A stretch of DNA of 64,000 nt from Micromonospora radicis (GTDB lineage: Bacteria > Actinomycetota > Actinomycetes > Mycobacteriales > Micromonosporaceae), in NCBI RefSeq assembly GCF_003583405.1, contig NZ_QXEC01000001.1, positions 1 through 64,000 on the forward strand. Reading direction: 5' to 3'. Shown piece by piece: positions 9,016 to 20,048 of this stretch (position 1 is the first letter of the stretch; every line of letters starts with the position of its first letter). A program made the position numbers and the translations under genes. Below the pieces are notes generated by a model. That model saw only the letters and a list, made by a program, of their open reading frames with translations. It was not told the DNA's origin and made no database searches.

Positions 9016-10866
9016 ATGGACCCTCGACTCCTGCTCGATCTGGCGGTGGGCGGGGCCGCCCTCGGTGGCTGGTTCGCCGCGTACGGCGCCGTCCGGCTGG
9101 CCACCCGGCCGGCCGACCCGACGCCCGCACCGGCCACCATGGAACTCGGTGCCGAACCCCCGGCCCTGGTCAGCCTGCTGGTCAACCGCTGGACGGTCAC
9201 CGAGGACGCGGCCGAGTCGACGTTGCTCGACCTCGCCGCCCGGGGCTTCGTCGAGCTGCGCCAGCCGGGCGACGACCCGCGGCAGACCACCCTGCACCTG
9301 CCCCCGGTGCCGCCCGACGACAGTGCGCTGCGCCCGTACGAGCGTCGGGTGCTCGACCGGGTGCGCGGCCTGGCGGTCGACGGGGTGCTGCCGCTGACCG
9401 CGTTGACCTTCCGTGACCCGGCCCGGGCGAAGTCGTGGAACAAGCGGCTGCGCGCGCAGGTGGTGGCCGACGCCAGGGCGGCGGGGCTGTCCCGGCGCCG
9501 CTTCGGCCCGACGGTGACCACGGCGCTGTCCGCCGCCGCGTTGCTCGCCGGCGTCGTCGTCGGCCTCGCCGCCGCCCACTACGGCAGCTGGCGCGGCACG
9601 GAGGACAACCCGGGTCTGGCCGCCGGGGTCTTCACCTTCGCGGTGCTGTCCGCCATCGCCGGTGCGACGCCCGGTGAACGCGACACGCCGCTGGGCCGTC
9701 AGCTGGCGGCGCGCTGGCTCGGGGTACGCGCCTGGCTGCGCGGGCACGAGCAGTTCGACGAACTGCCGCCGGCCGCGGTGGCGATCTGGGACCGCTACCT
9801 GGCCTACGGTGCCGCCGTCGGCGCCACCCGGCTGACCAGCGCCGTGCTCGACCTCGGGATGGGGGACCGGAGTCTGGTCTGGTCGTCGTACGGCGGCACC
9901 TGGCACCGCGTGCGGGTGCGTTACCCACGCGGGTCGCGGTACGGCAAGACGATGCCGAAGCTGCTGTTCAGCGCGGCGATCAGCGGCGCGGTGGGCGGCT
10001 TCGCGCTGAAACTCTTCGGCCCGTCGGCCGACCTCTTCTCGACCGGCAGCTATCCGGGCGCGCGGACCTTCGCCCTGGTCGCCGCCGGTATCGTCGCGGG
10101 CGCCGTGCTGCTGCTCGCCTCCGGCGGCTACACCCTGGTACGCGGCCTGGCGGATCTGCTCACCGAGCGCACCGTCACCGGCGAGGTGCTCTGGGTGCAG
10201 GTGTGGAAGTCGACCTCCCAGGGGGAGAACCAGCCGGCCCGACCGTGGCTGCACTACCTGGCGGTGGACGACGGCAGTGGCGATCGCACCACCGCCTGGG
10301 GGCTGCCCAGCCAGTGGGCCGGCGACTGCCACGACGGGGACACCGTGACGCTCCGGGTGCGTCCCTGGACCCGGCGGGTGGTCGGCTTCGCGGTGGTCGG
10401 GCACGGCCGCTCGCGGAGCTTGGCGGAGGCGACCGTACCGGAGACCACGGGGGTGGCGGCGGCCCGCGCGGGCGCACCGTCGGTCACGCCGCAGGCGTTG
10501 TTCCCGCCCGAGGAGGTCGGCCAGGCGGTGGGGCTGCCGGTCCGCCCGGCCGAGGCGGTGGATCTGCCCGGCCCGCTGACCGGTGTCCAGTTCCGGGCGG
10601 CCGGCGACGGTGCCGCCGTGCTGGCGGTGCAGACCGTCGCCGGTACGGCGGGGCAGTGGATCTGGCGGCTCAACGCCCGGGGCCAGGAACTGCCCGGCGT
10701 CGGCGACGGGGCGTACCTGGCGGGGGAGCGGGCCGTGCTGCGGGTCGGCGACCGGGTGGTGTTGCTGACCCTGCTCGGCGTCGCCCGAGGCCGGGCGGCC
10801 TATCTGCCGTGGCTGCTGGCGCAGGCCGCCGCCCGGGCGGCGGGCCGCGACGAGGCGGTCAGCTGA
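9016..10866 (+). CDS. DUF2207-like multi-pass membrane protein (LemA partner)
   Basis: A 616-residue protein with a N-terminal helix (~8-25), a soluble winged-helix-like part (SLLVNRWTVTEDAAESTLLD, LAARGFVELRQPGD), then two hydrophobic pairs at about 175-235 and 325-385, and a long soluble C-terminal domain. The order and the neighbour LemA recall DUF2207 proteins. The function is unknown; an envelope role is inferred from topology and context. ATG at 9016 is 13 bases after the lemA stop, so the two are likely one transcript. Confidence 0.65.
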   Translation: MDPRLLLDLAVGGAALGGWFAAYGAVRLATRPADPTPAPATMELGAEPPALVSLLVNRWTVTEDAAESTLLDLAARGFVELRQPGDDPRQTTLHLPPVPPDDSALRPYERRVLDRVRGLAVDGVLPLTALTFRDPARAKSWNKRLRAQVVADARAAGLSRRRFGPTVTTALSAAALLAGVVVGLAAAHYGSWRGTEDNPGLAAGVFTFAVLSAIAGATPGERDTPLGRQLAARWLGVRAWLRGHEQFDELPPAAVAIWDRYLAYGAAVGATRLTSAVLDLGMGDRSLVWSSYGGTWHRVRVRYPRGSRYGKTMPKLLFSAAISGAVGGFALKLFGPSADLFSTGSYPGARTFALVAAGIVAGAVLLLASGGYTLVRGLADLLTERTVTGEVLWVQVWKSTSQGENQPARPWLHYLAVDDGSGDRTTAWGLPSQWAGDCHDGDTVTLRVRPWTRRVVGFAVVGHGRSRSLAEATVPETTGVAAARAGAPSVTPQALFPPEEVGQAVGLPVRPAEAVDLPGPLTGVQFRAAGDGAAVLAVQTVAGTAGQWIWRLNARGQELPGVGDGAYLAGERAVLRVGDRVVLLTLLGVARGRAAYLPWLLAQAAARAAGRDEAVS

Positions 10867-10875
10867 GCGAGCGTA

Positions 10876-10903
10876 TTGACTTTTGCCAGCTGTGTAAAAA
10901 GAT
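10876..10903 (+). promoter_or_regulatory. Candidate promoter of the CopC-like gene
   Basis: TTGACT at 10876-10881, a 16-base spacer and AAAGAT at 10898-10903. The AT-rich run stands out against the GC-rich surroundings and lies 44 bases before the chosen start. The -10 is a weak match, so this is tentative. Confidence 0.35.
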
Positions 10904-10946
10904 GGACGCGTATCGACCAAAGCTGCGTCGTCGTGAGGATGAAGCG

Positions 10947-13055
10947 ATGCGTCCACTCCCTCGGACCCCGGTGCGTGCCCTCTCCGGCCTGCTCGCGCTG
11001 GTCCTCGCCACGGCGGTCGCGGTGCTCGCCGCCGCCCCACCGGCAGCGGCCCACGGGGGTCTGGCGATGTCCACCCCGAAGGCCGACGCCACGGTGGACG
11101 AACCACTGACGACGGTGCAGCTCTACTTCACCGAGCAGGTGGCCGGCAACGCCTACTTCGCGGTCACCGCGCCCGGCGGCGCCCGGGTCGACAACGGCTG
11201 GACCCACGGGGCAGCCGCGCCGCTGGACCAGCCGGTGCGGGAGTACTTCCTGGTCGACGGCGTCTTCGAGCCCCGCGAGTACACCACCGGTTTCCCGGCG
11301 GTGGTGAACCTGGCACACCTGCCGTCGGCCGGGCAGTACACGGTGAGCTATCTGTCGGTGGCCTCGGACGGCGAGCCGGTGCGGGGCACGATGAGCTTCC
11401 GCTACACCGGCCCGGTGACCCCGGCACCGGCCGGTTGGAACCCACCCACCGACCAACCCGACCCCGCCCTGCTGGCCGCCGCCGACCAGCACGGGCACGA
11501 TTCGGGCTCCTCGCCGGCACCCCCCGCCCCGCCGGGGTCGCCACCAGCGGCAGCCGGGCCGGCCCCGGCCGCCGACGGCGGCCTCGGTGCGGGCGCCTGG
11601 GCCGCGATCGTCGTGGCCGTCGTGGCCGCGTTGGTCGGCCTCCTGCTCTGGCGTCGGCGGCCCCTCGCCGTGGCTCGGTTCTTCGGTCGGGCTCCGGCGC
11701 CCGTCGCGCGCGGCCGGCGGACCGGCCCGCCGGCCCGGGCGAGGAAGAACGCGGCCGCGCGGGCCGGCAAGGCGACCCGCACCGGGGGCGCCGCCGCCCC
11801 GACCGGCACGGCGGCGGGTCGTGGCAACGCGACCGGCACGACCGCGGGTCGTGGCAACGCGACCGGCACGACCGCGGGTCGTGGCAGGGGCTCGGGTGCC
11901 GGCGGCACCTCGGGCACCGGCCGCCGCAACGTGGTACCGGCCGCCCGCCGGGGCGGCGCGGCGGTCACCGCCAGCGTCGTACCGGCCACCGCCAGCGCGC
12001 CGCCGGTCAGCGAGGTCGCCGCCGGGCAACCGACCCCGGCCGGCGGCGTGGTCACGGCCGACGGGCCCGACCCGCGGCCGGCCGAGGTCACCCCGGCCTC
12101 CGGGCTGGACGGTGCCGAGGCGGCGCCCGGCTCCGGGGTGGGCAACGCGCGGCTCGCCCTGCTCGTCGGCGGGTTGGTGATCACCCTGCTGGCCGGATTC
12201 GGGCTCGGTCGGCTCGGGGCCACCGAACAACAGGTCACCGAAGGGGCGCGGCCCGGCGGCGGCCTGCCCGTCGCCGGATCGGCCGGGGACGGGCACCAGC
12301 ACGCGCCGGGCACCGGAGCGCATTCGCATGCCGGCGACGGCACGGACCAGACGCAGACCACCGGGGCGTGGGTCAGTGCCGCCGGGTACACCCTGCAACC
12401 GGTGCAGCGGTCCCAGCCGCCCGGCACCCCCGTCGACTACCAGTTCCGCATCGTCGACGCCAACCGGCAGGCGGTGACCGAGTTCGCGGTCGTCCACGAG
12501 AAGCCGCTGCACCTCATCGTGGTGGGTCGTGATCTCAGCGGCTACCAGCACCTGCACCCGACGATGACCGGCGAGGGGCTCTGGAGCGTGCCGCTGGACC
12601 TGCCCCGGGCCGGCGACTACCGGGTGTACGCCGACTTCACCGTCGGCGCCGCCGACGGCCGGCAGCTGCCGTTGGTGCTGGGCGTCGACCACCAGGTGCC
12701 GGGGGTGTACACGTCCGCGCAGCTGCCGCCGCCCCGTCCGGAGGCCACCACCGGGCCGTTCACCGTGTCGATGGAGGGTACGCCGACGATCGGGCTGAGC
12801 GCCCCGGTCGTGCTGCGGGTCGCCGACGGATCCGGCCCGGCGGCGCTGGAGCCGTACCTGGGCGCGTACGGGCATCTGGTGGTGGTCCGCGAGGGCGATC
12901 TGGGCTATGTGCACGTGCACCCGGAGCCGGAGCTGGTCGACGGGGCGGTCAAGTTCTGGCTGACCGTGCCGAGCGCCGGCCGGTACCGGGCGTTCTTCGA
13001 CTTCCAGGTGGAGGGGAAGGTGCACACCGCCGACTACACGATCGACCTGAGCTGA
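10947..13055 (+). CDS. CopC-domain membrane protein with long linker and second extracytoplasmic domain
   Basis: A 702-residue protein. A Sec signal (1-35) ends AAA before His36, so the mature protein would begin with His as in the copper chaperone CopC; residues 36-165 carry the CopC/YcnJ N-domain (HGGLAMSTPKADATV). A helix at ~214-236 is followed by a ~165-residue basic, Gly/Thr/Ala-rich linker, a second helix at ~402-422, a His-rich stretch (DGHQHAPGTGAHSHAGDG) and a beta-rich C-terminal domain (470-702) with HLHP and HVHPEPE motifs. Copper handling at the envelope is inferred. ATG at 10947 has GAGG 8 bases upstream; an in-frame ATG at 10902 lies within the presumed promoter. Confidence 0.7.
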   Translation: MRPLPRTPVRALSGLLALVLATAVAVLAAAPPAAAHGGLAMSTPKADATVDEPLTTVQLYFTEQVAGNAYFAVTAPGGARVDNGWTHGAAAPLDQPVREYFLVDGVFEPREYTTGFPAVVNLAHLPSAGQYTVSYLSVASDGEPVRGTMSFRYTGPVTPAPAGWNPPTDQPDPALLAAADQHGHDSGSSPAPPAPPGSPPAAAGPAPAADGGLGAGAWAAIVVAVVAALVGLLLWRRRPLAVARFFGRAPAPVARGRRTGPPARARKNAAARAGKATRTGGAAAPTGTAAGRGNATGTTAGRGNATGTTAGRGRGSGAGGTSGTGRRNVVPAARRGGAAVTASVVPATASAPPVSEVAAGQPTPAGGVVTADGPDPRPAEVTPASGLDGAEAAPGSGVGNARLALLVGGLVITLLAGFGLGRLGATEQQVTEGARPGGGLPVAGSAGDGHQHAPGTGAHSHAGDGTDQTQTTGAWVSAAGYTLQPVQRSQPPGTPVDYQFRIVDANRQAVTEFAVVHEKPLHLIVVGRDLSGYQHLHPTMTGEGLWSVPLDLPRAGDYRVYADFTVGAADGRQLPLVLGVDHQVPGVYTSAQLPPPRPEATTGPFTVSMEGTPTIGLSAPVVLRVADGSGPAALEPYLGAYGHLVVVREGDLGYVHVHPEPELVDGAVKFWLTVPSAGRYRAFFDFQVEGKVHTADYTIDLS
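11801..11886 (+). repeat. 30-bp in-frame tandem repeat in the CopC-protein linker
   Basis: Two exact 30-base units at 11821-11850 and 11851-11880 (each encoding GRGNATGTTA in rotation), preceded by a degenerate 20-base partial copy and followed by a short one. The repeat keeps the frame and lengthens the basic linker between the two helices. Confidence 0.85.
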
Positions 13056-13206: not shown

Positions 13207-13242
13207 TAAGGCTTCGTAACGCCCGTGTCTGGAGCTGATGTC

Positions 13243-15696
13243 ATGCCTGCGTTCGCCGCATCCACCATCTCCGATCCGCAAGCCCGTCGTCGCGCCCGCC
13301 GGCGCTGGATCCCGACCGTCCTGACCGGAGTGCTCGTCGCCGCCGGGCTGACGTTGCCCGGTACCGCCGCACAGGCCGCCGAGGACTGGTCGCCCCGCTC
13401 GTCGTACACCTCGACCGACCGGGGAGACGGCAGCTACACCGTGCCGCTGCTGCGCTCCGACGTGCCGGACATCGGCGTGGAACGCGTCCCCGCCGCCGAG
13501 AACGACGAGGGCCGGGACATCTACTACATGATCAGCACCACCATGCACCTGAGCCCCGGTGCGCCGATCATGAAGTCGTACGACCTGGTCAACTGGGAGA
13601 TCGTCAACTACGTGTTCGACCGGGCCAGCATCGGCGACTCGTTCTCGCTACGTAACGGGCAGAACTCGTACGGCCAGGGCCAGTGGGCGTCCTCGCTGCG
13701 CTACCACGACGGCATGTTCTACGTCGCGTTCAACACCAACAACCTGGGTGGCGCGTACATCTACCGCACCGACGACATCGAGCACGGTGCCTGGCAGCGG
13801 ACGGCCCTCGGTCGCGGCCTGCACGACCCGTCGCTCTTCTTCGACCTCGACGGCACGCCGTACATCTTCTACGGCAACGGCAACATCAGCGCGGTACGAC
13901 TCAACGCCGGGCTGACCGCCGTGGTGCAGGACTACCCGAACGTCTTCACCGCGAACAACTACGCGGGGCAGCCGTTCATCGGCGGCCTGTTCGAGGGCGC
14001 CCAGTTCTACTACATCGACGGCTACTACTACGCCGTCATCATCACCTGGCCCTCCGGGCAGGGCCGTCAGGTCGTCATGCTCCGTTCGCCGGAACTGCTC
14101 GGCCGCCACACCTCCGCGGGTGGGGTGAACACCTACGAGGCCCGGGGCGTGCTCAACTCCAACGGCTTCGCCCAGGGCAGCCTGGTCCCGATCGCCGGTG
14201 CGGACGGCGCGACCAACTGGTACGGCATGTTCTTCCGGGACACCTTCCCGATCGGCCGCATCCCCGCGCTCATCCCCGCCACCTGGTCCGGCGGCTGGCC
14301 GACCTTCGGCACCAACGGTGTGGTGCCGGTGGAGGGCGCGTTCGCCAAGCCGATCGCGCTGAGCCCGGAGCAGGAGCGGTTCGAACGGCAGAAGAGCGTC
14401 GTCGCCTCCGACGACTTCGCCAACGACGCCCCGCACAAGGCGTACCGCGACGAGGAGTGGACCACGTCGGACCCGGCGATCGCCGCGGAGATCGCCCCCA
14501 ACGGGTCGCGGCTGGACATGGCGTGGGAGTGGAACCACGCCCCCGACAACCGGTACTGGTCGCTGACCGACCGGGACGGCTGGCTGCGACTGACCACCGG
14601 CAAGGTGGTCACCGGCCAGTACGTCTACACGAAGCTGTCGAACCGCGCGGAACTGGCCTGGTTCGAGGAAGCCCGCAACACGCTCTCGCAGCGGACGTTC
14701 GGGCCACGGCAGTCGGCCGAGACCAGGATGGACATCTCCGCGATGCGCGACGGTGACGTGGCCGGGCTGGCCGCGTACAACCGGGGTTTCTCGTACGTGG
14801 CGGTCAAGCGGACCGGCGGGGTGAACACGCTCGGCGTGGTCAACCGGGGGCAGCCCTTCGCGGTCGACCTCGACCAGGCGACGCTGGAGAACTTCCTGCC
14901 GGGCACCACGGTGTCGCTGGGGGACGCGACCGAGGTGCACGTCAAGGCCGACCTGGACTTCGCCTCGCCGACCGGGCAGCTCTGGACCACGTTCTACTAC
15001 AGCCTCGACGGGCTGACGTGGACGCAGCTGGGCAACCGGGTCGGGCCGCAGACCCTGGACGGCAGCCTCGCCCACTTCATGGGGCACCGGGTCGGCCTGT
15101 TCAACTACGCCACCCAGCAGAGCGGCGGGCACATCGACTTCGACCACTACCTGCTCAGCGACACGCTGACCGCGCAGAACCGGCCACTGGACACCGGGGC
15201 CCTCGACGCGGCCATCGCGTACGCGGCCACGCTCGACGAGTCGGCGTACCCGGCCGACGCCTGGGCCGCGATGGACGCCGCGCTCGCGGCGGCGACGTCG
15301 GCGCGGGCCGGTCAGTTCGGCACCCAGAACCAGATCGACGCCCCGGAACGCGCCCTCAGCTTCCAACTCGCCCGGCTCGGCGTGCTCCGCGGCGACCCGC
15401 CGCAGCTCCCGGTGACCGTCACCGCGCAGGCGCGGTGTGTGGCCGGCAAGGCGTACGTGGCGGTGCAGGCGCGCAACGACCACGACGCGCCGGTGGCCGT
15501 GGTGCTGGAGACGGCGTACGGCCAGCGGTCGGTGGCGCAGGTGGCACCGGGTGCCAACGCCTTCCAGCAGTTCGCCGTCCGGACCGCCGCGGTTCCGGCC
15601 GGTACGGCGACCGTCCGGGTCACCGGGACGGTCGACGCCAGCGCCGTGACGACCGTCCGCGCCGCCGGATACCCCGCCGCCAGCTGCGGCGGCTGA
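13243..15696 (+). CDS. Secreted GH43 family glycosidase (xylosidase/arabinofuranosidase type) with C-terminal modules
   Basis: An 817-residue secreted protein. Signal peptide about 1-45, ending AAQAAED. Residues ~60-385 are a five-bladed GH43 propeller with SDVPDIGVERV (Asp73/Asp76 in the base position), DIYYMISTTMHLSPGAPIMK and DLVNWEIVNYV, resembling GH43 subfamily 12. A beta-sandwich typical of C-terminal xylosidase domains follows (~395-650), then a FIVAR-like helical segment (~660-715) and a ~95-residue module (722-815) shared with the next gene. It likely removes arabinose or xylose from hemicellulose side chains. ATG at 13243 follows GGAG by 8 bases. Confidence 0.85.
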   Translation: MPAFAASTISDPQARRRARRRWIPTVLTGVLVAAGLTLPGTAAQAAEDWSPRSSYTSTDRGDGSYTVPLLRSDVPDIGVERVPAAENDEGRDIYYMISTTMHLSPGAPIMKSYDLVNWEIVNYVFDRASIGDSFSLRNGQNSYGQGQWASSLRYHDGMFYVAFNTNNLGGAYIYRTDDIEHGAWQRTALGRGLHDPSLFFDLDGTPYIFYGNGNISAVRLNAGLTAVVQDYPNVFTANNYAGQPFIGGLFEGAQFYYIDGYYYAVIITWPSGQGRQVVMLRSPELLGRHTSAGGVNTYEARGVLNSNGFAQGSLVPIAGADGATNWYGMFFRDTFPIGRIPALIPATWSGGWPTFGTNGVVPVEGAFAKPIALSPEQERFERQKSVVASDDFANDAPHKAYRDEEWTTSDPAIAAEIAPNGSRLDMAWEWNHAPDNRYWSLTDRDGWLRLTTGKVVTGQYVYTKLSNRAELAWFEEARNTLSQRTFGPRQSAETRMDISAMRDGDVAGLAAYNRGFSYVAVKRTGGVNTLGVVNRGQPFAVDLDQATLENFLPGTTVSLGDATEVHVKADLDFASPTGQLWTTFYYSLDGLTWTQLGNRVGPQTLDGSLAHFMGHRVGLFNYATQQSGGHIDFDHYLLSDTLTAQNRPLDTGALDAAIAYAATLDESAYPADAWAAMDAALAAATSARAGQFGTQNQIDAPERALSFQLARLGVLRGDPPQLPVTVTAQARCVAGKAYVAVQARNDHDAPVAVVLETAYGQRSVAQVAPGANAFQQFAVRTAAVPAGTATVRVTGTVDASAVTTVRAAGYPAASCGG

Positions 15697-15713
15697 CGCC
15701 CCGCCCGAGCTGT

Positions 15714-15741
15714 CCCGGGGCCGGTGCACGCCGGCCCCGGG
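15714..15741 (+). terminator. Intercistronic GC hairpin after the first GH43 gene
   Basis: Perfect 11-bp stem (15714-15724 with 15731-15741) and a 6-base loop, 18 bases past the stop. No U-tract follows, and the next gene starts 38 bases later, so it may be an attenuator or mRNA stabiliser rather than a full terminator. Confidence 0.6.
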
Positions 15742-15778
15742 ATGTCGATGACCCCCACCACCACTAGGAGGACATCTC

Positions 15779-18193
15779 GTGACACAGCGTCGACGAAGTG
15801 CGACCCGCCGTCGGGTCGCCGCGATCGCGGCGGCCGGCGTCCTGCTGGCCGGCTTCGGGTCCGCGGCACCGGTCCAGGCCGCCGACACGAACCTCGTCGT
15901 GAACGGCGGATTTGAGGACGGCCTCGTCGGTTGGTTCGTCAACAACGGCAACGCGACCGACGGTGCCATCCTGTCGTCCACCACCGACGCCTACTCCGGG
16001 TCGAGCGCGGTGCTGGTCACCAACCGGGCGACCACCGGCTCCGGGCCGATGCAGGACCTCTCCGGCAAGGTGCAGGCGGGACAGACCTACACCCTCAGTG
16101 CCCGGATCAAGTACGAGAACGCGGCCTCGCCCGCCACGAAGCAGTTCTTCGCCACCATGCACTACGGCGGCGGCACCTACACCAATCTGGTCAGCGTGAC
16201 GGCGACCCGGGGCCAGTGGGCGCACTTCAACGGGCAGTTCACCATCCCGGCGAGTCAGGGCGTCGGCACCGCGCGACTGTTCTTCGAGACCCCGTGGACG
16301 AGCACCCCGGCCGCCGACCCGAACCTGCACCTGATGGACTTCACGCTCGACGACGTGTCGGTGGTCGGCGCCGCGCCGCCCGCGCCGCCGTCGAAGACCA
16401 TCGAGGTGGTCGGCAAGCTGCCCGGGGAGCACAACCCGTTGATCGGGCACAAGTTCGGCGCCGACGGGTACGGCTTCGTGCACGACGGTCGGGTCTACAT
16501 GTACATGACGAACGACACCCAGGGGTACGCGCCGGACCCCACCACCGGTGTCTCGCCGGGCATCAACTACGGCGACATCAACCAGATCACCGTGATCTCC
16601 ACGACCGACATGGTCAACTGGACCGACCACGGTGAGATCCAGGTCGCCGGGCCCAACGGCGTGGCCCCGTTCACGAACAACTCGTGGGCACCCGGCATGG
16701 CCAAGCAGGTGGTCGACGGGCAGGAGAAGTTCTTCCTCTACTACGCCAACGGCGGCGGCTCCAGCAACGTGATCACCGGTGCCTCGCCGGTCGGCCCGTG
16801 GACCAGCGAGCGCACCAGCACGCTCATCGACAGCCGTACCCCCGGCACCGAGGGCGTCGCCTGGCGGTTCGACCCGGCCCCGCTGGTGGACGACGACGGG
16901 GAGGCGTACCTCTACTTCGGTGGCGGCCCGGCCGCCACGAGCATGCCGCCGGCCGAGCGGTTCAACAACCCGAAGAACCTGCGGGCGATCAGGCTGGGCG
17001 ACGACATGGTGTCGACGGTGGGCAGCGCGGCGGTGGTGGACGCGCCGGTGGCCTTCGAGGCGGCCCAGGTGTTCAAGCGGGACGGCAGGTACTACCTGTC
17101 GTACTCGTCGCACTTCGGCGGCAGCGACTTCGGCGGCCCGCAGACCCCGCTGCCCGGCTACCCGGGCGGCGGCCAGATCGGCTACATGATCTCCGACGAC
17201 CCGATGGTCTGGCCGAAGGAGACCTACGCGGGGGTGCTGTTCCCGAACCAGTCGCAGTTCTTCGGCGCCGGCACCGGCGGCAACAACCACCAGTCGGTCT
17301 TCGAGTACGAGGGCAGGTACTACTTCACGTACCACGGCCCGACGCTGAACAAGCGGATCAACGGCAACACCACCCAGGGCTACCGCAGCCCGCACATCCA
17401 GGAGCTGGCGTTCAACGCCGACGGCACGATCCGGCAGGTCGTCGGCGACTACGCCGGTGTCGACCAGGTCCGCGACTTCGACCCGTACCGGGTCTTCGAG
17501 GCGGAGACCTTCGGTTGGAGCAAGGGAGTGGCGACCGCCAAGGTCGACGGCGGGTCGGCCGAGTTCGGCGGCACGGCACCGAACCTGGTGGTCCGCGACA
17601 TCGACAACGGCGACTGGACGGCGCTGTCGTCGGTGGACTTCGGTGCCGGCGCCGGGAGCCTCACGGCGAAGGTGCGGCCGTTGGCGGCCGGCGGCACGAT
17701 CCAGCTCCGGCTCGGTGCCGCCGACGCACCCGTGGTGGCCACCATCCCGGTGGACGCGCCGCTGGGCCAGTGGACGGAGCTGACCACCGGGCTGACCGGG
17801 GTCAGCGGCGTGCACGACGTGTACTTCACCTACGCCGGGCCCGCGGGTGCCGACCTGTTCGAGATCGACACCTGGGCCTTCGCCGCCGGCACCGGTGCCG
17901 AACTGCCCGTCGAGGTCAGCGCCCAGGCCCGCTGCGTGGCCGGCAAGGCGTACGTGGCGGTGCAGGCCCGCAACGGTCATGACGGGCCGGTGGACGTCGT
18001 GCTGGAGAGCGCGTACGGCCAGCGGTCGGTGTCGGACGTCGCGCCGGGCGCCAACGCCTACCAGCAGTTCGCCTCCCGGACCGCGTCGGTGGCCGCCGGC
18101 TCGGCGACCGTCCGGGTCACCGGTGCGGTCGACGGCCGGTCGGTGACGACCGTGCGTACCGCGGAACATTCCGCCGCCGGCTGCGGCGACTGA
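15779..18193 (+). CDS. Secreted modular GH43 enzyme (CBM4/9 - GH43 - CBM6 - shared C-module)
   Basis: An 804-residue secreted protein. Signal 1-34 ends PVQAAD. A carbohydrate-binding domain of the CBM4/9 type (~35-195) begins with NLVVNGGFEDGLVGWF. The GH43 propeller spans ~205-560 (HNPLIGHKFGADGYGFVHDG, WAPGMAKQVVDGQEKFFLYY, PLVDDDGEAYLYFGGGP). A CBM6-like domain follows (~565-705, RVFEAETFGWSKGV). The last ~95 residues repeat the module of the preceding gene at roughly three-quarters identity. GTG at 15779 has a perfect AGGAGG site. Arabinan or arabinoxylan is the likely substrate. Confidence 0.87.
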   Translation: MTQRRRSATRRRVAAIAAAGVLLAGFGSAAPVQAADTNLVVNGGFEDGLVGWFVNNGNATDGAILSSTTDAYSGSSAVLVTNRATTGSGPMQDLSGKVQAGQTYTLSARIKYENAASPATKQFFATMHYGGGTYTNLVSVTATRGQWAHFNGQFTIPASQGVGTARLFFETPWTSTPAADPNLHLMDFTLDDVSVVGAAPPAPPSKTIEVVGKLPGEHNPLIGHKFGADGYGFVHDGRVYMYMTNDTQGYAPDPTTGVSPGINYGDINQITVISTTDMVNWTDHGEIQVAGPNGVAPFTNNSWAPGMAKQVVDGQEKFFLYYANGGGSSNVITGASPVGPWTSERTSTLIDSRTPGTEGVAWRFDPAPLVDDDGEAYLYFGGGPAATSMPPAERFNNPKNLRAIRLGDDMVSTVGSAAVVDAPVAFEAAQVFKRDGRYYLSYSSHFGGSDFGGPQTPLPGYPGGGQIGYMISDDPMVWPKETYAGVLFPNQSQFFGAGTGGNNHQSVFEYEGRYYFTYHGPTLNKRINGNTTQGYRSPHIQELAFNADGTIRQVVGDYAGVDQVRDFDPYRVFEAETFGWSKGVATAKVDGGSAEFGGTAPNLVVRDIDNGDWTALSSVDFGAGAGSLTAKVRPLAAGGTIQLRLGAADAPVVATIPVDAPLGQWTELTTGLTGVSGVHDVYFTYAGPAGADLFEIDTWAFAAGTGAELPVEVSAQARCVAGKAYVAVQARNGHDGPVDVVLESAYGQRSVSDVAPGANAYQQFASRTASVAAGSATVRVTGAVDGRSVTTVRTAEHSAAGCGD

Positions 18194-18234
18194 CCTTCCC
18201 ACCCCTGGTCCCACGAACGACTACGGAGTAGCTG

Positions 18235-18867
18235 ATGGACACATGGAATCGGAAGCGACTGCTGGCGGCGGGTGCCGCCGGTGCCCTGCTGGTCGGGGCG
18301 GTGGCGATGCCGTCGGCGGCGTCGGCGGAGCCGGGCGGCAGTGCCGACGTGGCGGTGACGGTCGACATCGAGGAGATCAGCGAGCCGGGTGTGCTGGCGC
18401 TGACGATCGCGGGCGACTCGGTGGCGCTGACCGAGGACGGGTCGACGCTGCTGGTCCGCCAGTTCGTCGGCACCCTGCCGACGGTGACGGTGACCGACAC
18501 CCGGACGGCGGACGAGGTGCCGGAGAACGCCGCCTGGGCGGTGCTGGGCAGCGCGACCGACTTCGTCGGTGCCGCCGGCCAGGAGCCGATCGGCGCGGGG
18601 CACCTGGGCTGGCGGCCGCGGCTGATCGACGGCGGCGACACCGGCCTGGTCAGCGAGGGCGAGGAGGTCGTCACCGTCCTCGACGAGCCGACCCAGCCGG
18701 GCAACAACGTCGGTCTGGTCGACCAGGAACTGCTGGTGTCGACGTTCGACTCGGGTGCGGTGGCCGGTGACGCGTACTCGGTGGACGCGGAACTGTTCCT
18801 GCGTACGGAGGCGGACGTGGCCGCCGGTGCGTACACCTCGACGTTGACCCTGTCCCTGTTCGAGTGA
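18235..18867 (+). CDS. Secreted WxL-like surface protein
   Basis: A 210-residue protein with a signal peptide (1-31, ending ASAEPGG). The body has VTVTDTRTADEVPENAAWAV, then ATDFVG and AGHLGWRPRL, the spaced DTR / W / DF / W-P-L pattern seen in WxL-type cell-wall-binding proteins. There is no membrane anchor or sortase motif. In Firmicutes WxL proteins are held at the wall with DUF916 partners; the next gene is such a partner. It sits 41 bases behind the second GH43 gene with GGAG upstream of ATG. Function as a surface scaffold for the hydrolases is inference. Confidence 0.6.
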   Translation: MDTWNRKRLLAAGAAGALLVGAVAMPSAASAEPGGSADVAVTVDIEEISEPGVLALTIAGDSVALTEDGSTLLVRQFVGTLPTVTVTDTRTADEVPENAAWAVLGSATDFVGAAGQEPIGAGHLGWRPRLIDGGDTGLVSEGEEVVTVLDEPTQPGNNVGLVDQELLVSTFDSGAVAGDAYSVDAELFLRTEADVAAGAYTSTLTLSLFE

Positions 18868-18873
18868 TGCGCC

Positions 18874-18907
18874 GGTGGGGGTCGTCCCGTGCGGGACGAC
18901 CCCCACC
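18874..18907 (+). terminator. Intercistronic 15-bp hairpin after the WxL-like gene
   Basis: Perfect 15-bp stem (18874-18888 with 18893-18907) with a GTGC loop, starting 6 bases past the stop. No U-tract. The next gene has its GGAGG site 21 bases on, so read-through is probable and the hairpin may set relative expression. Confidence 0.6.
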
Positions 18908-18941
18908 ACCGCACCGCCGCTGTCGTCGGAGGACCGCCGTG

Positions 18942-20048
18942 ATGATTCGTCCCGCGCCCGGAGTGCCCGCCGCACCGAGGTTGTTGCCGCGGCTGCTGGC
19001 CGCGTTGGCGGCGCTGGTGGTCGTCGGGTCGGTGACGCCGGCCGGCGCCGCGGCACAGCCGGCCGGTCCGACGGTGACCTGGGCGGTGCAGCCGGCGAAC
19101 CAGCAGGGGCCGGACGGCCGGCGGTGGGTGGAGCTGACGCTCGACCCGGGCCAGGTGGTGACCGAGCACCTGGCGGTGCGCAACTTCGGTGCCGCGCCGG
19201 TGGTCTTCTCCCTCAAGGCGGCCGACGGCTATCTCACCGACAAGGGACGGTTCAACATGCTGTCCTCCGACCGGGTGTCGGTCGACGGCGGGACCTGGAT
19301 CGAGGTCCAGGAGAAGGTGACGGTCGGGGCCAGGGAAACGCGGGTGGTGCCGTTCACGATCAGGGTGCCGGTCGACGCGTCGCCGGGGGACCATCCGGCG
19401 GGGATCGCGGCGTCGGTGGTCAGCGCCAGTGGCGCGGTGGCGGTGGAGAGTCGGGTCGGGTTCCGGGTGATGCTGCGCGCCAGCGGCACGGTCACCGCCG
19501 CGCTCTCCGCAGAGGGCCTCGCCGCGACCTACCGGCGGTCGTGGAACCCGTTCACCGCCGGCACCCTCCGGGTCACCTACACGGCGAGCAATACCGGCAA
19601 CGTCGCGGTGACCGGCACCGGTCGGGTCCGCACAGAGGAACTGTTCGGCCTGGTCACCCGGGACGGGCCGGGGGAGGTGGCGGAGACGCTGCCCGGTGGG
19701 GAGCGGCAGGTCGAGGCAGCCGTCGGTGGCGTCTGGGGGTTGGGGCGGGTGACGACCGGCGTCGAGGTGACCCCCGCCGTCGTCGGCGGTGATCCGGCCG
19801 TCGTCGGCGGTGATCCGGCCGTCGTCGGCGGTGATCCGGCCGGCGCGCAGCTCCGACCGGCGGTGGCCACCGTGACGGTGTGGGTGCTGCCCTGGCCACA
19901 GCTGGCCCTCGTGGTGGTCCTCGCCGCCCTGGTCCTGCTCTGGCGGGGCGTCACCCGCCGTCGGCGCCGCCGCCTCGCCCGACTGCTCGCCGAAGCCCGC
20001 GACGAGGGGCGTGCGGAGGCCCGGACGACGGCGCTCACCGGCGGCTGA
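18942..20048 (+). CDS. DUF916-like WxL-partner membrane protein
   Basis: A 368-residue protein with a signal peptide (1-36, ending GAAAQPAG). Then comes a beta-rich domain starting VTWAVQPANQQGPDGRRWVE and containing GQVVTEHLAVRNFGAAPVVF, the layout of the WxL peptidoglycan-binding (DUF916) family. A Pro/Val linker holds three VVGGDPA repeats, followed by one helix (~317-340) and a very basic cytoplasmic tail. It probably anchors the WxL-like protein at the cell surface. ATG at 18942 and GTG at 18939 are both served by GGAGG at 18928. Confidence 0.68.
   Translation: MIRPAPGVPAAPRLLPRLLAALAALVVVGSVTPAGAAAQPAGPTVTWAVQPANQQGPDGRRWVELTLDPGQVVTEHLAVRNFGAAPVVFSLKAADGYLTDKGRFNMLSSDRVSVDGGTWIEVQEKVTVGARETRVVPFTIRVPVDASPGDHPAGIAASVVSASGAVAVESRVGFRVMLRASGTVTAALSAEGLAATYRRSWNPFTAGTLRVTYTASNTGNVAVTGTGRVRTEELFGLVTRDGPGEVAETLPGGERQVEAAVGGVWGLGRVTTGVEVTPAVVGGDPAVVGGDPAVVGGDPAGAQLRPAVATVTVWVLPWPQLALVVVLAALVLLWRGVTRRRRRRLARLLAEARDEGRAEARTTALTGG
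19776..19838 (+). repeat. Three exact 21-bp in-frame tandem units
   Basis: Units at 19776-19796, 19797-19817 and 19818-19838 encode AVVGGDP three times in the juxtamembrane linker of the DUF916-like protein. Identical copies suggest recent expansion. Confidence 0.9.

Follow-up and report, generated by a model that had tools for sequence, protein, structure and literature searches.

What connects two GH43 glycoside hydrolases that end in the same small domain with the WxL-like and DUF916-like genes that follow them? The question arises from the first 64,000 nucleotides of contig NZ_QXEC01000001.1 of Micromonospora radicis (the window), in which a reading of the open frames places four genes in a row on the forward strand, as are all features given below by window position: GH43 enzyme 1 (P0001), GH43 enzyme 2 (P0002), P0003 and P0004. 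A sequence-only reading had described these four genes, all of which are present where it placed them, and had proposed that the domain shared by the enzymes docks them onto the WxL/DUF916-like pair. We consider it reasonably probable that this C-terminal module acts as a tag that docks its carriers onto a small WxL-like adaptor, P0003, itself held by the membrane-anchored P0004. Comparative genomics supports this putative docking well.

The module occupies positions 15412 to 15693 in P0001 (copy 1) and 17909 to 18190 in P0002 (copy 2), i.e., 94 residues in each. The copies are 74% identical over 94 residues, and the regions of the two proteins that hold them match in BLASTP with an E-value of 5e-41, far above chance; the shared module of about 95 residues described earlier is thus real. 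Its placement outside known families also stood, in that searches of Pfam and NCBIfam with the modules returned no convincing family. A search of the M. radicis genome (E ≤ 0.01) found the module in the P0001 and P0002 genes only. The structural model of copy 1 (predicted local distance difference test score, pLDDT, 96.7) is a seven-strand sandwich made up entirely of strands, with no helix. With this model, Foldseek gave no match at E ≤ 0.001, and a second structure comparison (VIA) gave generic immunoglobulin (Ig)-like matches only, with a best Z of 9.7. That is, the module models as an Ig-like sandwich without a specific known fold relative. Weak matches of the module profile to de novo designed proteins were read as generic Ig-like similarity and rejected. 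Because Cys9 and the C-terminal cysteine are kept or lost jointly (both present in 80 of 83 modules, both gone in 3, never one alone), a disulfide between them is suggested. The module ends no more than 9 residues before the stop in 84 of 85 distinct modules, the exception being a broken gene; among the named loci described below, 143 of 144 modules finish within 7 residues of it. Two partial copies were seen in one f8 locus (L300). No description of the module was found in the literature searched, which was open-access only, so that this absence is weak; nor did any open-access paper found there combine 'WxL' and 'Micromonospora'.

The linkage between module and small WxL genes was assessed in four samples (family, named, f8 and class draws), which overlap in species and loci and in which weaker matches may be hidden. 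In the family draw of 150 genomes, matches to P0003, the module and P0004 occur in 59, 40 and 91 genomes, respectively. A module lies upstream of all 38 P0003 homologues with at least 50% identity, at 170 bp or less in 37 and at about 210 bp in a broken gene of genome G112, which was counted once and whose second piece is 450 bp from the module. Within 20 kb of the 68 remoter P0003 matches, no module was found. All 27 genomes with a close P0003 homologue carry the module, versus 13 of the 123 genomes without one (Fisher 2.8e-20, uncorrected for relatedness). A scan of named genomes used the WxL profile alone; the best 80 of its 242 candidate stretches amount to 78 loci, and a module lies directly upstream in 78 of 78. 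These loci belong to Micromonospora, Verrucosispora, Plantactinospora, Catellatospora, Dactylosporangium, Phytohabitans, Actinoplanes/Paractinoplanes, Acrocarpospora, Nonomuraea, Streptosporangium, Planotetraspora and Herbidospora, plus one Micromonosporaceae. The system reaches beyond Micromonosporaceae.

The two other draws gave similar counts, taking only matches above a gap in E-values. In the draw of 100 genomes from family f8, a module gene neighbors 14 of 14 small WxL matches with E ≤ 5e-51. It lies upstream in 10 (one about 1 kb away, and one only a partial module match), divergent in 3 and downstream in 1; G464 gives one additional case. Below the gap, the next f8 match (G564, E 2e-30) is a protein of the large type, and its 14 kb contain no module. 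In the class draw of 264 genomes, a module gene neighbors 27 of 27 small WxL matches with E ≤ 4e-46: 20 upstream, five of them taken from tables alone, 6 in the order WxL-P0004-module (f92), and 1 divergent. The 27 do not include partial WxL matches, namely four pieces on short frames in G714 and one in G753 (contig C66). Two of the G714 pieces sit at contig ends beside a module, and since near-identical copies in one genome may break assemblies, copy numbers in draft genomes may be underestimated. Small WxL matches cut by contig ends were noted at L322 and L323 of G714. Three gene orders are thus found around the pair of module and small WxL gene, and no close small WxL gene examined stands without a neighboring module gene. 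A DUF916-like gene is adjacent in 57 of the 78 named loci; of the remaining 21, at least L238 is truncated by a contig end. The constant unit is the module plus the small WxL gene, and not the set of four genes.

The proteins that carry the module are of several kinds. Clustered by BLAST (30% identity or more across 40% of the shorter sequence), the 78 neighboring bodies form 12 clusters, namely GH43 clusters of 32 and 25 and ten others totaling 21. The domains of the non-GH43 carriers are nuclease/nucleotidase, M14, ThuA with galactose-oxidase-like, GH127, purple acid phosphatase, DUF6351 and LVIVD; two clusters share Exo_endo_phos, one has no Pfam family and one has no catalytic domain. Clusters b0, b2, b3 and b9 were named via domains found in the same loci. 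Tannase-like proteins are also among the carriers beside the adaptor, and the f8 carriers have GH20, GH30 with GH43, GH127, and ThuA with GSDH. Micromonospora zingiberis (G107) has four small WxL genes, whose neighbors are GH43 enzymes, a DUF6351 protein, an M14 peptidase and a nuclease/nucleotidase, together with at least one P0004 match (12 of 50 candidates scored).

Within one genome (43 pairs, leaving out seven 'Micromonospora sp.' loci), the small WxL proteins are 92% identical on average and the modules 55%, with bodies in different clusters. Between Micromonospora species, for the same body cluster, the values are 85% and 72% (328 pairs). So the adaptor is uniform inside one genome, and the modules track their enzymes. 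Mapped onto the WxL tree, in which many branches are weak, the body label changes 23 times, versus 39.5 for shuffled labels and 12 for genus. The association of module and WxL gene is not one inherited operon.

A natural experiment is provided by one locus of family f92, whose two module proteins have roughly 1600 and 1060 residues. The WxL-P0004 pair directly precedes the module genes in six genomes (L306, L307, L309, L310, L311 and the contig-cut L308) and is missing at the locus in four (L324-L327); the flanking gene families are largely common to both groups, though in L309 and L311 some genes escaped the simple gene caller. We compared the 32 module columns that are conserved with the adaptor, pooling aromatics, counting Phe54 to Leu as a change, and leaving out rows with more than 25 gaps, including the partial module of G006. 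Without the pair, columns 14, 15, 51 and 54 drop by more than 35 points and column 57 drops to 0.75, while the cysteines, Asn22, Gly37, Gly64 and the hydrophobic core columns are unchanged. Aromatics at both 15 and 51 are found in 11 of 11 f92 modules with the pair and in 0 of 8 without it. In the window these candidate docking aromatics are Tyr15 (15454-15456) and Phe51 (15562-15564) of copy 1, and Tyr15 (17951-17953) and Tyr51 (18059-18061) of copy 2. Judging from the alternation of conserved core residues, residues 15 and 51 probably point outward on neighboring strands. The loss of these columns without the pair points to a pair-dependent contact, and docking predicts that aromatics 15 and 51 belong to it.

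The same signature was followed in the other fetched modules. Both aromatics are present in 58 of 61 f1 modules with a close WxL gene and in 8 of 10 f90 and f113 modules with the adaptor, versus 0 of 19 f1 modules and 1 of 15 others where the adaptor is absent. All 82 modules fetched from adaptor-bearing genomes of f1, f90, f92 and f113 contain [Y/F]51-Q52-x-F54. Relaxed constraint was also sought in how far the modules have diverged relative to their bodies, but this ratio is inconsistent (gene 1, 2.22 with the pair versus 2.68 without; gene 2, 2.26 versus 1.34), so that we rely on the column-wise comparison alone. Gene 2 of G837 (L327), with its long branch and odd composition, is weak evidence.

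P0003, the proposed adaptor, is encoded at 18235 to 18867 and comprises 210 residues, with a signal-peptide-like start, judged by eye, and one domain; its profile spans residues 25-210 of the 211-residue frame. Its D-T-R (residues 88-90; 18496-18504) corresponds to a D-x-R found in CscB ahead of the first WxL motif and described there as D-x-R-G (PMC1534035). W-A-V (101-103; 18535-18543) is the counterpart of the first W-x-L motif, and L-S-L (206-208; 18850-18858), in which the Trp is replaced, that of the distal motif known from WxL proteins (PMC5817068). All 27 aligned close members have the D-x-R, and all have W-x-V and L-x-L instead of two W-x-L motifs. P0003 itself has no Pfam match, and PF13731 (WxL) matches 17 of 43 aligned WxL-like relatives at E ≤ 0.1, with a best E of 2.1e-6. 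Because of the replaced motifs we do not file P0003 as a strict WxL protein and classify it, from its sequence, as a probable distant WxL relative. Its isoelectric point is 4.05, the floor of the calculator, and its model (mean pLDDT 78, residues 1-49 under 50) has no match in the PDB at E ≤ 0.001.

The close, stand-alone form of the small WxL protein accompanies the module. Among the remoter homologues, all 23 in the 20 fetched stretches (L132-L151) carry the WxL-like domain as the C-terminal part of a longer protein. Stand-alone remote forms that lack a module also occur, e.g., in the M. radicis genome (G000:C4:145922-146410, 199 residues, E 4e-6). A second pair was also noted there at G000:C67:51102-52673 (L151), where a larger frame with a C-terminal WxL-like domain accompanies a P0004 homologue; the 12 kb fetched around L151 contain no module.

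P0004 (18864-20048) has 394 residues as translated and overlaps the P0003 stop by 4 bases; its true start may be Met27, at 18942. Positions 19092 to 19409 resemble WxLIP_PGBD (PF06030) at an E-value of 1.2e-4, below the cut-off (22.6 bits versus a curated 27.3), and the P0004 family profile matches solved EfmWxLIP1 chains with E 3.6e-5. A second domain of the DUF3324/HBD type gave no Pfam match in P0004 at E ≤ 1. The core of a C-terminal hydrophobic segment lies at 19902 to 19943 and is followed by a basic tail; together they form a probable membrane anchor, in agreement with the earlier description of a membrane-anchored DUF916-like partner. Counted from Met27, the isoelectric point is 10.6. 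A threefold AVVGGDP repeat (19776-19838) lies about 20 residues ahead of the hydrophobic segment.

In the arrangement we propose, secreted enzymes ending in the module would bind P0003 non-covalently, and P0003 would be held at the cell surface by the membrane-anchored P0004, perhaps also by peptidoglycan. At this locus, two putative arabinoxylan-debranching GH43 enzymes would be kept at the surface in this way; at other loci and in other genomes, a similar adaptor would hold other hydrolases. The tag would take the role of the covalently fused C-terminal WxL domain of large WxL proteins. As regards the idea of a docking module shared on a WxL/DUF916-like pair, the linkage (38 of 38, 78 of 78, 14 of 14 and 27 of 27), the several enzyme families and the three gene orders back it strongly at the genomic level, so that it is supported in part, and the docking itself is what we infer from them.

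Several observations weigh against this arrangement. Neither strict W-x-L motif is present in P0003. As 57 of the 78 neighboring bodies are GH43, the variety of carriers rests on 21 loci, which slightly lowers our confidence in docking. Module and WxL divergence within a genome are uncorrelated (rho -0.07, p 0.65, 43 pairs); for their distances, rho is 0.27 over all pairs and 0.12 for pairs of different body clusters. Judged by a crude pattern, only 61 of the 78 module frames and 71 of the 78 small WxL genes begin with an export-signal-like stretch. The contrast between f92 loci with and without the pair stands on few events, namely 2 changes of presence or absence on the gene 1 body tree and 1 on the gene 2 tree, and 3 of the 8 f92 modules without the pair are still aromatic at 51 and 4 of 8 at 15. 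In f8, despite the adaptor, position 51 is aromatic in 9 of 51 modules and both positions in 3 of 51, and in G108/G145 the aromatics are found in 0 of 6; thus they are not a universal contact. There are also modules without an adaptor: 13 of the 40 module-bearing genomes of the family draw have no close small WxL gene, nor do 7 of the 12 from f8; a wider WxL profile, applied anew to 15 module-bearing genomes, gave no match in 6; and in the draft genome G655, six modules all keep both aromatics and no small WxL gene was found. The question of whether modules occur in genomes that lack the pair, raised by the sequence-only reading, therefore has a mixed answer; among those examined, every close small WxL gene neighbors a module gene.

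Such modules are what would be expected if the module bound the cell wall or one of its polymers unaided, with the small WxL protein as an assistant, i.e., a chaperone, stabilizer or regulator. The fold columns and both cysteines, which are kept in modules without the pair, would fit this, and a near-uniform small WxL protein in each genome would suit a general assistant. However, columns 15 and 51 are lost without the pair, and most of the loci are adjoined by a gene for a DUF916-like protein, a type that in Firmicutes is believed to bind WxL proteins; we consider a self-sufficient wall attachment unlikely. If the module were instead an ordinary carbohydrate-binding domain or an Ig-like spacer, and the linkage a matter of inherited operon structure, its Ig-like fold with merely generic structural matches, the weak CBM_35 similarity in 7 of 83 modules (Pfam, best E 0.0015) and the predominance of glycoside hydrolases among the carriers would all be natural. 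Nucleases, a carboxypeptidase and a phosphatase are carriers too, however, the module is almost always at the extreme C-terminus, and its association with the WxL gene is constant across different bodies and three gene orders, which makes this explanation, in our view, rather improbable. We see very little chance that the tag binds the DUF916/WxLIP-like membrane protein directly, with the small WxL protein completing the site. For WxLIP of Firmicutes, one domain that binds the wall or WxL and another, facing outward, that binds a partner have indeed been proposed (PMC10599100), but the module is tied more tightly to the WxL gene than the WxL gene is to P0004, even with at least one of the 21 exceptions contig-cut, and the four small WxL loci of G107 stand against its one scored P0004 match.

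In the vicinity of modules without an adaptor (the neighbors at L112, L114, L115, L116, L121, L123 and L124), no obvious anchor was found. Directly after the module genes of L121 (7910-9268), L123 (8183-9436) and L124 (7328-8974), we noted Pfam-less proteins of 418-549 residues; the genomes concerned have no WxL match, and these proteins are possibly another partner of the module.

Docking onto a small WxL adaptor has its closest precedent in the Csc/WxL clusters of Firmicutes, in which CscA is the DUF916/WxLIP protein, CscB the small WxL protein and CscC the large WxL protein; more than 91% of 938 WxL sequences are from Firmicutes (PMC9772566). In both systems, a small acidic WxL-like protein adjoins a basic, DUF916-like one whose C-terminal part has a hydrophobic segment. 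Csc/WxL clusters have been proposed to form surface complexes, some of them for plant polysaccharides (PMC1534035, PMC9772566, PMC10599100). In Enterococcus, a WxL-WxLIP complex has been predicted (PMC10599100), and PMC5817068 cites an interaction in vitro. PMC10599100 argues that WxLIP inserts its hydrophobic helix into the host membrane and not the bacterial one. Unlike Csc enzymes, those considered here bear an Ig-like module and not a fused C-terminal WxL2 domain, near-identical adaptors serve as neighbors of different enzymes in one genome, the strict W-x-L is lost, and the hosts are actinobacterial.

The logic of a small terminal module on diverse enzymes with a surface partner protein is also that of the cohesin-dockerin pair of the cellulosome. 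Dockerin is a helical, calcium-binding fold, whereas the module model is all-beta, and dockerin is absent from the 25 Pfam families that were listed for the 83 modules. The C-terminal domain of Type IX secretion in Bacteroidota is likewise Ig-like, of about 80-100 residues, and sits at the extreme C-terminus of diverse cargo; unlike it, the module is found in Gram-positive hosts and is linked to WxL/DUF916-like genes.

The 'hemicellulosome' of Cellulosimicrobium cellulans F16 was reported as an actinobacterial complex lacking cohesin and dockerin, with 27 identified proteins (PMC4562250). Its key subunit, observed at about 200 kDa, is ThuA-GSDH-PKD-CBM6-PKD; its monomeric forms are missing some 500 residues at the C-terminus, one such form having been released by proteinase K, and the authors state that how the subunits assemble is unclear (PMC4562250). 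The f8 protein of L179 has ThuA, GSDH, PKD and CBM6, ends in the module and adjoins a small WxL gene. The likeness is one of domain make-up, and the F16 proteins are candidate carriers of the module. It is conceivable, if doubtful, that the module and the small WxL protein form an unrecognized plug-and-socket pair of Actinomycetes, functionally analogous to dockerin and cohesin, that assembles multienzyme complexes on the cell surface or close to it and explains the dockerin-less complex of C. cellulans. Should docking be correct, one small tag would mark secreted proteins kept at the surface by several actinobacterial families, so that sets of surface enzymes could be read from genomes. It would also constitute a second, non-covalent use of WxL-type platforms, a candidate answer to how the reported dockerin-less actinobacterial complex assembles, and a compact tag-adaptor pair for enzyme display.

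The two enzymes of the window begin with export-signal-like N-termini. P0001 (13243-15696) starts at an ATG at 13243, and its open frame reaches back to a GTG at 13225, giving 823 residues; P0002 (15779-18193) has 804. Ahead of the module, Pfam identifies GH43 and GH43_C2 in P0001 and CBM4_9, GH43 and CBM6 in P0002, with the catalytic domain above the cut-off in both (91.3 and 93.3 bits, respectively, versus 32.2). The nearest solved structures of P0001 are 6mly, a bifunctional GH43-CE protein, and 3zxj (HiAXHd3), which we take to be an arabinoxylan arabinofuranohydrolase; those of P0002 are 3c7e and 3c7g, deposited as endo-1,4-beta-xylanase and presumably the arabinoxylan arabinofuranohydrolase BsAXH-m2,3. 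The earlier label 'arabinan-type' is not supported by these relatives, and we rejected an arabinan specificity of both enzymes; an arabinoxylan-type activity is more likely. Between GH43_C2 and the module of P0001, positions 15145 to 15369 weakly match part of the lacto-N-biosidase LnbX (E 2e-5, below the cut-off); this segment is perhaps a helical linker. A pattern scan for promoters and terminators at the locus found none, and the intergenic gaps of 82 and 41 bases suggest that the four genes form one operon. Upstream of them, at 10203 to 13055, lies a long frame that by eye resembles a CopC-type copper protein.

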